In this document: piece after piece, positions 34,020-38,648 of the stretch | How the letters are laid out: the number at the start of each line of letters is the position of its first letter | Position numbering within the stretch: position 1 is the stretch's first letter | Source: Clostridiales bacterium UBA4039 | GTDB taxonomy: Bacteria; Bacillota; Clostridia; Lachnospirales; Vallitaleaceae | Direction of reading: 5' to 3' | DNA length: 39,980 nucleotides | Assembly (NCBI GenBank): GCA_002382805.1 | Contig: DGAD01000029.1 | Location: forward strand, 1 to 39,980 | The notes under the pieces: model-generated | The model's database searches: none | Told to the model about the DNA's origin: nothing | Seen by the model: the letters and a program-made list of their open reading frames with translations, nothing else | Made by a program: the position numbers and the translations under genes

Positions 34020-35105
34020 ATGGCTAATTATCATGAACAATCTCTACATAATGATACCCTTAAATTGCGACGTTTAATACAAAAACTACCGCCATTTACA
34101 TTTGAATTTTTCCGTGGTATTGAACATACAACCAGTTCTAAAACTCGTATTGCATATGCTTATGATTTGAATGTGTTTTTTACATTTATAACTACTCAGT
34201 TACAGGAATTTAAGGATATATCGATTCAGGCCTTTCCCGTCAAACGCCTTGAAGATGTGACACCAGATCATATTGAATATTACCTGGACTATCTCTCCTA
34301 CTATAATGATACGTCCTCCTCCACCAACGACTCCTCTTTACCGGAAAGAAGCAATAAAGAGCGGGCTAAATTACGCAAATTAGCCTCTTTAAGAAGTTTT
34401 TACAACTATTACTATAAGAAGCAAAAAATAACCTTTAATCCGGTCGTTCTGGTAGACTTACCCAAGATTCACGAGAAGCATATCATTCGTTTAGAAGCTA
34501 ATGAAGTTGCAGACTTTTTAGATATTGTTGAATCCGGTGATGCTTTAACCAAAAAAGAAAAACAGTATCATAAAAAGACTAAAACTAGAGATTTAGCGTT
34601 GATTACCCTTCTTTTAGGCACCGGTCTTCGTGTTAGCGAATGCGTCGGTCTTAATATTGCTGATATTGATTTTTCTAAAAATGGTCTACGAATTATACGA
34701 AAAGGTGGTAATGAAGTCATCATTTACTTTGGTGATGAAGTTGCTGACGCATTAAAAGATTACCTTCAAGAACGCAAAAAAATCATCCCAAACTCCGGTC
34801 ATGAGGACGCTTTATTCCTGTCATTGCAAGATCGGCGCCTAAGCGTTCGCAGTGTACAGAATTTGGTCAAAAAGTATTCCAAACTAGTAACGTCCTTAAA
34901 AAATATCTCTCCTCATAAATTACGCTCCACCTATGGTACCGCCTTGTACCAAGAGACCGGAGATATATACCTTGTCGCCGATGTTCTGGGGCATCAAGAC
35001 GTTAATACAACGAAAAAACACTATGCAGCCATTGAAGATGAACGCCGTAGAAAAGCAGCTAAATCCGTTATCTTACGCCGAGAAAAGTCTTCCGACAAAT
35101 CATAA
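34020..35105 (+). CDS. Tyrosine recombinase (XerC/D-like)
   Basis: A 361-residue site-specific recombinase with an N-terminal SAM-like DNA-binding domain (about 25-135) and a complete catalytic set: Arg204 (GTGLRVSE), Lys228, His299 and Arg302 (HKLR), His325 (LGHQDV) and Tyr335 (HYAAI). It cuts and joins DNA through a phosphotyrosine link. No phage genes, excisionase or flanking repeats are visible, so a chromosomal Xer-type role is more likely than a prophage integrase. GGAATGG lies upstream of ATG. It is about 4 kb from lexA. Confidence 0.9.
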   Translation: MANYHEQSLHNDTLKLRRLIQKLPPFTFEFFRGIEHTTSSKTRIAYAYDLNVFFTFITTQLQEFKDISIQAFPVKRLEDVTPDHIEYYLDYLSYYNDTSSSTNDSSLPERSNKERAKLRKLASLRSFYNYYYKKQKITFNPVVLVDLPKIHEKHIIRLEANEVADFLDIVESGDALTKKEKQYHKKTKTRDLALITLLLGTGLRVSECVGLNIADIDFSKNGLRIIRKGGNEVIIYFGDEVADALKDYLQERKKIIPNSGHEDALFLSLQDRRLSVRSVQNLVKKYSKLVTSLKNISPHKLRSTYGTALYQETGDIYLVADVLGHQDVNTTKKHYAAIEDERRRKAAKSVILRREKSSDKS

Positions 35106-35178
35106 ATGTAGATTTGCCTTATATGCGCGTGCAAGGTCTGTTTATATTGAGCCCGGTTCATCTATTTTACCACTCAAC

Positions 35179-35214
35179 AAGAACGAGCCATCATCAATTT
35201 GATGGCTCGTTCTT
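35179..35214. terminator. Terminator hairpin between the recombinase and fusB-like genes
   Basis: A perfect 15-bp stem, AAGAACGAGCCATCA (35179-35193) with TGATGGCTCGTTCTT (35200-35214), loop TCAATT. It lies between convergent genes. T-runs are short, so it may act mainly as an mRNA 3' end on the plus strand. Confidence 0.75.
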
Positions 35215-35228
35215 TAGATTATATCTTT

Positions 35229-35873
35229 TTAATCTGTTACTTTTAAAAATAGGTTCACCAGATTGATTGTAGATGTAATACGCTCATTGCACTTTTGGCT
35301 ATCTAGACATGCATAAAACCCAATGGAGCGATAACCATCACCTGAGCTTTTGCATACAGGTGAAACAAAAGCTACTTCACTGCTTCCACCAACGTGATTG
35401 CATAACTTACATATATTGGCAGCCGTCGGCTTAGCTGGCTGGATCTTACAGGCCATTCCTAATAGTGTATTGTGATGATAATAAGCCATATATAATTTTT
35501 TATTCGAAGTATCTTGCCATCCCAGATATACCTTTCGAGCCGTTAATATCTCATCTGATGGCAACTTAAGATGTTTTTCCTTTTTAAATAACTTCTTAAG
35601 CTGCATCGGTGTGGTTCCATCCATACCATAGACATATTCATCGAGATTTGCTAAATAGTTTTCGATTTTTTTAACACTATCTATCGATATTAACTCCAAT
35701 TGTTTCATCTGTTGATCATCCAAGTCTTCAAACAAATTAAAAATCTGAAGTTCGCAATGAAGTTTGTTGGACTCAACAACCTGTGTATCTGGACAAAACT
35801 TTAAAACCGAAGCAAGTTCCTTCATATGTTTATTAATTGCATTATATTGTTCTTTTTTTATAAAAGCTTTCAT
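35229..35873 (-). CDS. FusB/FusC-type elongation factor G-binding protein
   Basis: A 214-residue protein matching the FusB family, which binds EF-G and helps release it from the ribosome, giving fusidic acid resistance in staphylococci. The N-terminal half is helical. The C-terminal treble-clef zinc finger shows C155-KL-C158, then Cys189 and Cys195 (CLDSQKC). Length equals FusB. ATG 35873 has AAAGGAG 6 bases upstream. The leader encodes an 18-codon peptide and competing stems. Chromosomal members in Clostridia may have a general translation-recovery role, so resistance is not certain. Confidence 0.87.
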   Translation of the reverse strand: MKAFIKKEQYNAINKHMKELASVLKFCPDTQVVESNKLHCELQIFNLFEDLDDQQMKQLELISIDSVKKIENYLANLDEYVYGMDGTTPMQLKKLFKKEKHLKLPSDEILTARKVYLGWQDTSNKKLYMAYYHHNTLLGMACKIQPAKPTAANICKLCNHVGGSSEVAFVSPVCKSSGDGYRSIGFYACLDSQKCNERITSTINLVNLFLKVTD

Positions 35874-36045
35874 TCTGTACTCCTTTTTATGTATTATTCT
35901 ATTTGCTTGGGCTCAGGCTCAAAGAATACAGACAGTTAACGTATAAATCTGATGTGCTTAGGCTCCGTACAAAGTACGTTCAACTGTTTTACTGTAGCCT
36001 TTGAAAGGAGCCGGTTCCCATAAATAGGAATATATCGTTATTCAT
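35874..36045 (-). promoter_or_regulatory. Attenuator-like leader of the fusB-like gene
   Basis: Read on the minus strand, several stems compete. CTCCTTT (36010-36004) inside the leader ORF is complementary to the fusB ribosome site AAAGGAG (35886-35880). GGCTCC (36012-36007) is complementary to GGAGCC (35966-35961) and to two tandem GAGCC copies (35920-35916 and 35914-35910). CGTAC-TTT-GTACG (35978-35966) is a local hairpin. ACAGTT-g-AACGTA (35987-35975) pairs with TACGTTAACTGT (35943-35932), excluding that hairpin. A ribosome stalled on the leader ORF would free the ribosome site. Confidence 0.7.
35989..36045 (-). CDS. 18-residue leader peptide of the fusB-like gene
   Basis: On the minus strand ATG (36045-36043) opens MNNDIFLFMGTGSFQRLQ and stops at 35989. 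AGGAGG lies 9 bases upstream (36060-36055), as strong as that of a normal gene. The reading frame contains the sequence that can pair with the fusB ribosome site, which is the classic layout of translation attenuation for ribosome-targeting antibiotic resistance genes. Translation of fusB in staphylococci has also been reported to be controlled by a leader. Confidence 0.65.
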   Translation of the reverse strand: MNNDIFLFMGTGSFQRLQ

Positions 36046-36077
36046 CCTTGGATACCTCCTTATATTATATTAGATAT

Positions 36078-36086
36078 AGTATAGCA
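36078..36086 (-). promoter_or_regulatory. Extended -10 promoter of the fusB leader
   Basis: TGCTATACT (36086-36078) on the minus strand is an extended -10 with five of six -10 bases. The -35 position (36106-36101) reads AAGTTA, a poor match. The predicted start lies near 36071, 26 bases before the leader-ORF ATG. It sits just past the copper ATPase stop codon. Confidence 0.55.
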
Positions 36087-36094
36087 CAAATATA

Positions 36095-38116
36095 TTATTT
36101 TAACTTCAATAATTTTGCATTAATCGCCACAATGACAGTACTTAAAGACATAAAGACTGCACCAATCGCAGGCGAAATAACAATCCCAACACTGGATAAT
36201 ACTCCTGCGGCCAAAGGAATTGCCACAATATTATACCCCGTCGCCCAAATAAGATTTTGTATCATTTTGCGATAAGTCGCCTGTCCAAAGTCAATTAAAA
36301 TAGCCACATCTTCGGGATTGGAGTTTACCAAAATAATATCTGCTGTTTCTGCAGCCACATCTGTTCCGGAACCAATGGCAATGCCAACATCTGCTTGCGC
36401 CAGCGCCGGTGCATCATTAACCCCATCACCTGTCATAGCTATAAAGCGTCCCTGTGTCTGAAGCTCTTTAATCTTCTCTTGTTTTTGTTCGGGAAGGACC
36501 TGGGCAAAATATCCATCCAGACCTAATTCTTCAGAAACTTTTTTTGCAGTTGCTTCGTTATCTCCGGTCAACATCCATGTCTTTATACCTTCATCTTTTA
36601 GCCGCTTAATCGCTGCATAAGATTCTTCTCGTATCCCATCTGCCAACCCAATCGCCGCAATTATATTCTCATCGACTAGCAAAAAAACATTTGTAGATAC
36701 GCCTTGATCAGGAAGCTCTTTTGGAAGCGTCAGATTATTCTCTTCTAAGTATCCAGGACTAACTACCATCACTTGATGACCTTCAATAGTACCTTCAATA
36801 CCTTTGCCTTTAATCGCTTGAAAATCTTGACTTTCTAGGTAGGTTAATTCCATCGCATTAAATTTTTCGATAATTCCTTTCGCAATAGGATGTTCAGAAT
36901 GCTGTTCAAGTGTTGCAGCCAAAGTAATAACTCGCTCTTTTGAATAGTTTTCATCAAATACTTCAATAAAGTTTACTTTAAAGTCACCATAGGTCAATGT
37001 ACCCGTTTTATCAAAAACTACAGTATCAATCTTACGGGCATTCTCAAATTGTGTTCGATTCCGAATCAAAAGTCCGCTTTCAGCAGCTTGCGCTGTGGAA
37101 CTAGCTACAACTAGCGGCATTGCTAACCCCAATGCATGGGGACAGGTAATGACCATAACGGTGGCCATTCGAGCGATGGCATATGTAAAATCCTTGGTTA
37201 GCATATACCAAATAATTAGCGTTGCAAATCCAATAGTAAGTGCAACAATTGTTAACCAAAATGCGGCTTTATCCGCCAAGTTTTGTGTTCTGGACTTTGA
37301 TTTTTGGGCACTTGTCACCATAGCAATTACTTTGGATAAATAGGAGTCATCCCCTGTACCTTGGACATCAACCTCTAATGCACCATCTCCATTTAATGAA
37401 CCTCCGATAACTTTGTCCCCTTTATTTTTTTCAATTGGTTTTGATTCTCCTGTTAACATAGATTCGTTTATATAACTTGTTCCCTTTGCAATAATACCAT
37501 CAGCGGGAACTTTTTCTCCTGGCTTGACAAGAATTTTGTCATCCGGTTTTAGTGTATTGACTTTAACATCTGCAATAGTTCCATTATCCATCCGATGTGC
37601 CGTATCCGGCATTAATTCTGCAAGTTTATCTAGTGCTTTTGAAGCACTTAAAACTGATTTCATCTCTATCCAGTGTCCAAGAAGCATAATATCAATAAGC
37701 GTTGCTAGTTCCCAGAAAAAATCCTTTCCATCAAGTCCCAACGTTGTTGCACTACTATAAAAATAGGCAACTGAAATAGCCATGGCTATTAATGTCATCA
37801 TACCAGGATTCTTCTCTTTGAGTTCACTAAACAAACCTTTTAAAAATGGCCATCCACCATAAAAATATATAAAGGTCGCAAGTCCCAGCAATAGATATTG
37901 GCTTCCCTTAAAATCTAGTGTTATATTTGTCCATTCCTGAATCATCGGCGATAAAATTAATACCGGAACTGTGACAATAAGAGATATGTAAAAACGTTTT
38001 TTGAAATCATTAATCATCATCTGATGATGGTTATGATGATTCTCATGGTTATCTTGGTTCTCATGGTTATATTGATTCTCATGGTTATATTGATTCTCAT
38101 GGCTGTGTTGGTTCAT
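36095..38116 (-). CDS. copB: CopB-type copper-transporting P-type ATPase
   Basis: A 673-residue P1B ATPase. The metal-site motif is CPH (VITCPHALGLAMPLV) rather than CPC, which defines the CopB subgroup (Cu+/Ag+ or Cu2+ export). Phosphorylation site DKTGTLTYG, actuator TGES, SEHPIAKG and GDGVNDAPAL are intact. There is no CxxC metal-binding domain; instead the N-terminus has His-rich 6-residue repeats (HENQYN). ATG 38116 follows GGAGGAGA. A terminator lies between this gene and the upstream DUF302 gene. Confidence 0.93.
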   Translation of the reverse strand: MNQHSHENQYNHENQYNHENQDNHENHHNHHQMMINDFKKRFYISLIVTVPVLILSPMIQEWTNITLDFKGSQYLLLGLATFIYFYGGWPFLKGLFSELKEKNPGMMTLIAMAISVAYFYSSATTLGLDGKDFFWELATLIDIMLLGHWIEMKSVLSASKALDKLAELMPDTAHRMDNGTIADVKVNTLKPDDKILVKPGEKVPADGIIAKGTSYINESMLTGESKPIEKNKGDKVIGGSLNGDGALEVDVQGTGDDSYLSKVIAMVTSAQKSKSRTQNLADKAAFWLTIVALTIGFATLIIWYMLTKDFTYAIARMATVMVITCPHALGLAMPLVVASSTAQAAESGLLIRNRTQFENARKIDTVVFDKTGTLTYGDFKVNFIEVFDENYSKERVITLAATLEQHSEHPIAKGIIEKFNAMELTYLESQDFQAIKGKGIEGTIEGHQVMVVSPGYLEENNLTLPKELPDQGVSTNVFLLVDENIIAAIGLADGIREESYAAIKRLKDEGIKTWMLTGDNEATAKKVSEELGLDGYFAQVLPEQKQEKIKELQTQGRFIAMTGDGVNDAPALAQADVGIAIGSGTDVAAETADIILVNSNPEDVAILIDFGQATYRKMIQNLIWATGYNIVAIPLAAGVLSSVGIVISPAIGAVFMSLSTVIVAINAKLLKLK
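38040..38103. repeat. 18-bp tandem repeat encoding the His-rich start of CopB
   Basis: About three and a half copies of an 18-base unit (plus strand ATTCTCATGGTTATATTG with variants) encode HENQYN-type hexapeptides at the CopB N-terminus. Copy number may vary between strains, as is common for in-frame repeats. Confidence 0.8.
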
Positions 38117-38165
38117 ATTTCTCCTCCTTTTTTACAGTCTATTCGCACATCCTTCGTAAAATGAC

Positions 38166-38198
38166 AAAAACCGCCTTAAGATCTTTAAGGCGGTTTTG
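38166..38198 (-). terminator. Terminator of the DUF302 transcript
   Basis: AAAACCGCCTTAA (38167-38179) pairs perfectly with TTAAGGCGGTTTT (38185-38197), loop GATCT. On the minus strand it starts 4 bases after the DUF302 stop and ends in a T-run. It lies before copB, so copB expression may depend on read-through; no clear own promoter was found. Confidence 0.8.
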
Positions 38199-38201
38199 GG
38201 T

Positions 38202-38588
38202 TTAAATAGACGCTTCAATGGCTTTCATTAATGAAGCTTCAACATTTTGTGCAACAGATGTTAATGTCTCTTCATCAAATAGAGCCATTAAGCGCTCAGG
38301 CCGCAACATACCGATATATGTGGTTTTTTTATCGCGTCGAACGACCATTTTACAAGGCAATACATATCCAACATGTATATTTTTCTCTAACACTTCTTTT
38401 GCTTTTTTAGGGTTACATACTTCGAGCACAACAAAGGGATTTTCAAAATCCAGCCCTTTTTCCTGTAACTTATCTTTAAAATTTAATTCCCATAGGACGC
38501 CAAACCCTTCATCTTTTAAGCTGGCTTTTAATGCCTTTAGTGCATCATCTAAAGATTTATCTGTATCTTTTTCATAAATTATATCCAT
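38202..38588 (-). CDS. DUF302 protein, possible copper-stress partner of CopB
   Basis: A 128-residue soluble protein of the DUF302 family (SLDDALKALKASLKDEGFGVLWELNFKDKLQEKGLDF ... NPFVVLEVCNPKKAKEVLEKNIHVGYVLPCKMVVRRDKKTTYIGML). The function is unknown; such proteins are often next to metal or stress genes. Cys residues in EVCNP and LPCKM could bind metal (inference). The start is ATG 38588 with AGGAGG 7 bases upstream; an earlier in-frame start at 38633 has no such site. It precedes copB. Confidence 0.85.
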   Translation of the reverse strand: MDIIYEKDTDKSLDDALKALKASLKDEGFGVLWELNFKDKLQEKGLDFENPFVVLEVCNPKKAKEVLEKNIHVGYVLPCKMVVRRDKKTTYIGMLRPERLMALFDEETLTSVAQNVEASLMKAIEASI

Positions 38589-38648
38589 GATATACCTCCT
38601 AAATCTTGTTTGGGATTTATAGTTTTTGTTCATTTTCTTGGTCTTTTT

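Follow-up and report, generated by a model that had tools for sequence, protein, structure and literature searches.

The RNA leader that precedes a fusB-like gene in Clostridiales bacterium UBA4039 (contig DGAD01000029.1, positions 36086–35874, minus strand) is probably a translational attenuator, a divergent and directly wired member of a class of leader RNAs in Bacillota. Positions refer to the window, i.e., the whole stretch of 39,980 nucleotides that was analyzed. Membership in this class, which is found in Clostridia and other Bacillota, was shown by sequence comparison. In the proposed resting state, a segment A formed by leader codons 12–18 would pair with a downstream segment E, an inner hairpin would form, and codons 5–9 would cover the ribosome site of the fusB-like gene. 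In the induced state, a ribosome held at about codons 2–9 would cover codons 5–9, A would keep E, and the site would open; the FusB-like protein would likely be made when translation slows. We infer both the closed state and the ribosome position that opens it from folding.

The leader has the expected parts of an attenuator, including a short ORF that precedes the gene and has a ribosome site of its own. All features that follow are on the minus strand. An extended -10 promoter element (TGCTATACT, 36078–36086) lies directly past the stop codon of the upstream gene, which encodes a 673-aa P-type ATPase and ends at 36095. The original prediction had read this element, and it is present in the sequence; the consensus promoter scan does not list it because the scan demands a -35 match. 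A ribosome site, AAGGAGG (36055–36061), precedes the predicted leader ORF of 18 codons plus stop (MNNDIFLFMGTGSFQRLQ, 35989–36045; ATG at 36045–36043, stop at 35991–35989), both of which are read directly from the sequence. The distance from the start to the conserved core is 42 nt, inside the range of the class. Codons 5–9 carry the predicted anti-ribosome-site segment, TATTCCT A TTTATG (36019–36032), with a pairing probability of about 0.6 on folding. Segment A of the window (GGCTCCTTTCAAAGGCTACAG, 35992–36012), assigned from folding and from homology to the fusB-locus leaders of relatives, can have either B or E as partner.

Past the leader stop follow the 5′ arm of the inner hairpin (ACAGTTGAACGTA, 35975–35987), the first six bases of which fold with a pairing probability of 0.98, and segment B (ACTTTGTACGGAGCCTAA, 35958–35975), the alternative partner of A (CAAAG:CTTTG, GGCTCC:GGAGCC), which was aligned with B of the relatives. 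The 3′ arm of the inner hairpin, also from folding, is TACGTTAACTGT (35932–35943). Segment E (35910–35931), assigned by comparison with E of the relatives, consists of CTGTATTCTTTG, which pairs with A as CAAAG:CTTTG and TACAG:CTGTA, and GAGCCTGAGCC. Mean A:E pairing in the fold of the window is 0.90. The ribosome site of the fusB-like gene, AAAGGAG (35880–35886), is predicted to be mostly closed, and 115 bases separate the leader stop from the fusB-like ATG (35873).

Upstream on the same strand, the region 36095–38633 holds a DUF302 gene and the copper-type P-type ATPase, which has a histidine-rich N terminus and NHENQ repeats. On the other side, the fusB-like gene converges with a XerC/XerS-like integrase gene (34020–35105); a long inverted repeat (AAGAACGAGCCATCA..TGATGGCTCGTTCTT, 35179–35215) between the two may be a two-way terminator.

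The downstream gene (35229–35873, minus strand) encodes a FusB-type EF-G-binding protein of 214 aa, in agreement with the original assignment. It matched Pfam EF-G-binding_N (PF07299, 1.3e-15) and FBP_C (PF16571, 6.6e-11), both over cut-off, and solved FusB/Far1 chains in the PDB at about 3e-17. The protein has the EF-G-binding N-terminal domain and C-terminal treble-clef zinc finger of the FusB type, and C142, C155 and C158 are invariant among 21 aligned FusB-like relatives. Its scores are far under the NCBIfam cut-offs for FusB, FusC, FusD and FusF (79.6 of 435 bits for fusF and less for the rest). The gene is the sole PF07299 match in its genome, and relatives occur in four of 295 same-order genomes, its own counted in. 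By analogy, the protein likely frees ribosomes jammed by fusidic acid; going by this cargo, fusidic acid would be the natural inducer.

Taken alone, the complementary segments of the window are modestly above chance. The leader folds with z-scores of -2.18 over 221 nt and -2.21 over 193 nt, and as good a fold was obtained in 5/200 and 4/200 shuffles, respectively. The top mutually exclusive helix pair scored 13.5 vs 10.5 ± 1.4 and was equaled by 1 of 60 shuffles. By itself the window makes a weak case; support for regulation comes from the comparison with relatives. Searches of Rfam returned no match for the window leader at gathering score or with E up to 5, and tRNA was the sole match on six related loci.

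The pairings originally proposed fared differently in the fold. The pairs GGCTCC/GGAGCC, CGTAC-TTT-GTACG and ACAGTTgAACGTA/TACGTTAACTGT are all present and are mutually incompatible as a full set. The stretch CTCCTTT (36010–36004) is the exact complement of AAAGGAG (35886–35880), but its suggested role as the main partner of the fusB-like ribosome site is not favored: this pairing has a probability of 0.05 and costs 2.6 kcal/mol, and AAAGGAG pairs instead, with a probability of about 0.6, chiefly with TATTCCT and TTTATG of codons 5–9. Pairing of A with B in the naked window has a probability near zero and costs about 3.4 kcal/mol; of two GAGCC copies, the computation took the first where the second was meant.

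Scanning the named genome collection with an alignment of 21 FusB-like proteins yielded 56 loci, mostly in Clostridium. Many of them have a leader of the type MKVYDTFSFKSACSLQRLQQSQLCFVWSLSC upstream, and the typical order is leader, a gene of about 92 aa belonging to the NCBIfam family CD3324, and the FusB gene. The leader stands directly before the FusB gene, with no CD3324 between, in the window and at L003, L028, L036, L047 and L050. A covariance model (R1) built from 24 of the fusB-locus leaders gave a plus-strand match with E of 5.5e-8 or better at 39 of the 56 fusB loci, i.e., the 24 used for model building and 15 independent ones, so the attenuator layout is retained in related genomes. 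The pattern named beforehand as contrary evidence, a fusB-like gene kept with neither leader nor compensatory changes, was not what the relatives displayed; retention of the leader together with compensatory changes favors the attenuator reading. At the same level on the plus strand, 17 of the 56 loci gave no R1 match. At six of these the CD3324 gene is divergent and, judged by eye, preceded by a related leader, and at the remaining R1-negative loci no related leader was found upstream of the fusB gene.

The model R1 does not detect the leader of the window with E up to 1, and its class membership therefore follows from pairwise alignment. Aligned with seven fusB-locus elements (L062, L036, L028, L050, L106, L006 and L040; L106 and L047 are the same place), the window leader scored 18–24, with shuffled maxima of 16–19, and in all seven cases none of 500 shuffles was as good. 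Its alignment to four elements outside fusB loci is weak or absent, the number of shuffles as good out of 500 being 3 for L101, 40 for L112, 246 for L113 and 490 for L128.

For the fusB group, RNAalifold returned one nested structure, the leader codons pairing both to the ribosome site of the next gene and to E around the inner hairpin, with E about 36 nt before the gene. The helix cells of this group pair in 98.5% of cases vs 39–54% for slid versions. The group contains one double change, column shuffles reached its covariation score in 77/500, and the ungapped exclusive-helix scan was not significant for it. The signal within the Clostridium fusB group is conservation, not covariation. In L003, the nearest genome and of the same species, three bases are missing from A relative to the window.

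Some fusB loci are organized in other ways. At L010, L013, L020, L026, L035, L043 and L055 (minus strand), CD3324 is divergent from the fusB-like gene, with starts 546–1164 nt apart; all seven have a strong hairpin and T run right before E, and six have a related leader by eye. This arrangement suggests control in trans with added transcription attenuation. A Listeria fusB-like gene (L145) is preceded, about 145 bases before position 701, by a possible leader (MVIKEMQTKLHCSRLSNNGFRIV) and hairpins unlike those of the present class. The leader of L016 had no similarity to plasmid or phage records.

From the sequences compared across the wider class, one leader segment keeps two mutually exclusive partners with compensatory changes. 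Segment A (GCTCC..GCAAAG..) is complementary both to B (..CTTTG..GGAGC) and to E (..CTTTGC), and both arms vary in sequence with pairing kept, as in GCAAAGACC:GGTCTTTGC, GCAAAGATC:GATCTTTGC, GCAAAGGCCA:TGGCCTTTGC, TGCAAAGCCAGT:ACTGGCTTTGCA and GCAGAGTC:GACTCTGC. Among 42 CD3324 upstream regions outside the Clostridium fusB group, 17 had A:B/A:E exclusive pairs matched by no more than 1 of 60 shuffles, where about 1.4 are expected; the second tier contributed 7 of its 15 regions and the phylum sample 10 of its 27. No shuffle out of 60 scored as high in 14/90 CD3324 upstreams and in 4/56 FusB upstreams, the latter four being other hairpins. Over 36 elements, paired positions exceeded permutation for A:E (87.3% vs 77.0%) and A:B (88.9% vs 79.2%), an excess that is inflated because the permutation did not repeat the selection of well-pairing B and E made for each element. 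The 60-shuffle exclusive-helix test is cleaner because the full search is repeated in each shuffle.

The window has the class layout, with A inside the leader, complementary to B and E, and E about 35–50 nt before the gene. Its homologous A:E is CAAAG..TACAG with CTGTA..CTTTG, and 11/13 A:B and 11/12 A:E positions pair, with partners picked for best fit. The comparison with relatives suggested at the outset thus gave a mixed answer: the stems are compensated across the wider class and hardly within Clostridium, and the peptide is not conserved.

Judged by sequence, relatives of the leader extend far beyond fusB genes. In the family of genome G649, 57/206 genomes gave an R1 match with E up to 0.001. 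At 18 weaker R1 places, the next gene is CD3324 in 15, FusB in one (L106) and, directly, CatA in one (L109); at another, L095, a CD3324-like frame begins but did not pass the filter. At L109, the gene straight after the related leader encodes a type A chloramphenicol acetyltransferase and begins 12 nt after the element, with no CD3324. Past CD3324, L103 has an AAC(3) gene (PF02522, 3.7e-92), and other second-tier loci have genes for GNAT acetyltransferases, an ABC exporter (L112) and metallo-hydrolase-like, MerR-like and SnoaL-like proteins.

In the phylum sample, R1 matched 1/398 genomes, probably because the model is fitted to Clostridium and strict search filters were applied. CD3324, over cut-off in 41/398, was a better handle. 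Thirty phylum CD3324 loci were examined (L117 duplicates L062; L126 and L139 were not recognized), and the leader layout was present upstream of many and absent upstream of others. Genes past CD3324 here encode ABC-F proteins (L115 and L119, both only partial), a Vat-like acetyltransferase (L131), a nucleotidyltransferase-domain protein (L128) and an RsgA-like GTPase (L116, which passes TIGR00157), and some have no drug link. The AAC(3), ABC-F, Vat-like and CatA (90 residues) proteins scored under the NCBIfam cut-offs of named families. CD3324 itself is a Mor-type helix-turn-helix protein (PF08765, 3.1e-8 in one member; 1.7e-4, under cut-off, in the CD3324 of the window's own genome).

A second copy of the class in that genome (L143, about 2370–2570; G000:C35, immediately before 28068) precedes its sole CD3324 gene; the A:B helix of this copy is perfect and its A:E helix almost so. 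Downstream of the CD3324 gene are a weakly RidA-like gene and then a gene that is TetR-like by eye. The leader core pattern also occurs in three IMG/VR contigs (L092, L093 and L094), for which the gene-start script listed neither CD3324 nor FusB. At L129, L135, L141 and L142, CD3324 upstreams have G+C-rich hairpins and T runs in place of the A/B/E layout.

To describe how a ribosome on the leader affects the downstream site, it was modeled as a 29-nt mask, so that mask folding is a proxy for stalling; the scans use just core and gene positions. The test against shuffles covered 39 of 71 elements, with the Clostridium fusB group sampled at every fifth member; the 18 bases next to the gene were left unshuffled. 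The naked ribosome site is unpaired at 0.18 in the elements vs 0.38 in the shuffles. Opening peaked with the P site 18 nt (+0.165) and 15 nt (+0.134) before the core, where shuffles gave +0.01 to +0.06, and exceeded +0.05 at these two positions in 28/39 and 27/39 elements vs 37/156 and 39/156 shuffled ones. Masks in that stretch opened the site in all five groups (+0.07 to +0.31); effect sizes are small. Our reading of the model is that at the peak the mask would cover the anti-ribosome-site part, leaving the core free to hold E.

In the window, masks at codons 2–9 opened the ribosome site by +0.28 to +0.36 and those at other codons by +0.12 or less; its anti-ribosome-site part lies further upstream (codons 5–9) than in the class. 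Masking A hardly opened the site. Folding with and without a ribosome, as had been proposed, thus supports opening by a mask over codons 2–9 but not by one over CTCCTTT. The leader RNA is therefore predicted to sequester the downstream ribosome site and to have alternative pairings, a prediction that is weaker in L003. There the site is less closed (unpaired 0.52 vs 0.31 in the window), opens by +0.11 to +0.18 at codons 2–4, and is closed by masks from codon 8 on. The L003 leader either counts against the model or marks a decaying copy.

The switch could also have the other sign: A:B together with pairing of E to the ribosome site would be the closed state, and A would pull E off that site when a ribosome sits on B. 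Phylum members fit such a scheme: the naked RNA of L113, L128, L121, L124, L134 and L140 folds into A:B and a hairpin that holds the ribosome site, and the phylum group has a larger second peak of opening with the ribosome on B, up to +0.19 on average. The leader of the window, however, stops before B, A:B pairing has near-zero probability there, and single-ribosome masks downstream of A shift the site by 0.06 or less. We consider this sign unlikely for the window.

Arrest by one specific peptide, in which a nascent chain ending in SFQRLQ stalls the ribosome on A in response to a single drug, as happens at erm leaders, also appears rather improbable. A pattern S-[LFM]-Q-[RG]-L-[QH] does recur in many Clostridium leaders, and the window differs from L003 by an in-frame 3 nt. 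Yet all three reading frames of the core occur among 71 elements (LQRL, CSCKDY, LQAK, CAKS, YAKP), even in the Clostridium fusB-group leader L031; the leaders of L101, L102 and L110 end inside A; the R/G alternation preserves pairing and not the residue; and a mask on A scarcely opens the ribosome site. The differing frames and the leaders that stop inside A argue against arrest by one nascent peptide, and the frame changes also ruled out peptide conservation as the main signal, as first suggested by the SLQRLQ pattern. Leader ORFs of the class have 9–38 codons, and the start-to-core distance is 45 nt in 35/71 elements and 42–49 nt in 58/71. These 71 elements are those kept by script from 146 gene starts, with the start mis-picked in L070, L072, L075, L076 and L081 and E in several. 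As far as sequence comparison goes, what the class conserves is the RNA core and how far it lies from the leader start, not the peptide. Because the core and distance are what is conserved, we infer a sensor of slowed translation generally, rather than of one drug via one peptide.

Transcription attenuation, in which a hairpin (the inner one or one near E) would terminate unless a ribosome prevents it, would agree with the B:D hairpin of Clostridium operon leaders, which is often followed by 4–7 T, and with the strong hairpin and terminal run of seven T in L010-type leaders. For the window itself it is improbable, as no intrinsic terminator (G+C-rich hairpin then T run) was found in the leader, no leader hairpin is followed by a T run, and the single terminator-like site listed for 35150–36200 (36171–36157) lies within the upstream gene. 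That there is no regulation, and that a spurious short ORF and chance palindromes in a low-GC intergenic region account for a structure that is about 1 in 40–60 against shuffles in the window alone, is highly improbable given the leader conserved at 39/56 loci, the compensatory changes across the wider class, and the alignment of the window to fusB-locus elements.

Translational attenuation thus being the preferred reading, its logic is by analogy closest to that of the pUB101 fusB leader, toiL and cplR. The staphylococcal fusB leader of pUB101 is a translational attenuator induced by fusidic acid, where stalled ribosomes free the ribosome site (PMC12008383, PMC12493156); it shares with the window the kind of cargo and the proposed logic. 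The regulation of FusB homologs is described as unknown in PMC12493156. As originally anticipated, the present leader differs from the staphylococcal one: upstream of pUB101 fusB there is a candidate 20-codon leader (MLKDITYLKLLDLEYKMLCS) without an A core, with CAAAG only downstream of it, and in that upstream region no leader peptide or RNA related to that of the window was found. The FusB protein of pUB101 is 29% identical to that of the window.

The toiL leader of Escherichia coli topAI, a leader ORF that pairs lengthwise with the downstream ribosome site, is relieved by several classes of ribosome inhibitors (PMC12121999). Such pairing is shared with the window, whereas phylum and cargo differ, and the part of the toiL description seen mentions no fixed-distance A/B/E switch (PMC12121999). 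In Bacillota, Clostridioides difficile cplR, which combines translational and transcriptional attenuation (PMC10201436), Bacillus subtilis vmlR and related ABC-F leaders are likewise cases of leader-controlled resistance genes. The cplR/vmlR-type leaders encode very short consensus peptides (MR[I/M], MIN) and are likely stalled at start codons (PMC12121999), in contrast to the 9–38 codons and the conserved RNA core about 45 nt in of the present class. Leader candidates in the portion seen of PMC8632094 show other motifs. We found no description of the present leader class in the open-licence literature, a search that left subscription papers outside, and the family name CD3324 occurred there in just two papers, on nematodes.

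WhiB7 is a transcription regulator of resistance. The leader before the whiB7 gene in Actinobacteria responds to several ribosome-targeting drugs (PMC12121999). It differs from the present case in phylum and regulator family, CD3324 being Mor-type, and the leader of the window lacks CD3324 and lies directly before fusB. A broader interpretation is possible, and we put it forward tentatively: the window may hold a stripped-down version of an RNA-defined translation-stress sensor of Bacillota, an A:B or A:E switch beside the ribosome site, read by ribosomes paused about ten codons in, with CD3324 as its usual output and the counterpart of WhiB7, and here, as at CatA, wired straight to a resistance gene. 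The usual surroundings of CD3324 would then be FusB, ABC-F, Vat-like, AAC(3) and GNAT genes.

The present leader offers a directly testable case outside staphylococci. Through the wider class, one sensor without a drug-specific peptide could switch diverse ribosome-protecting or drug-modifying genes in many Bacillota, and the CD3324 family would gain a likely role.
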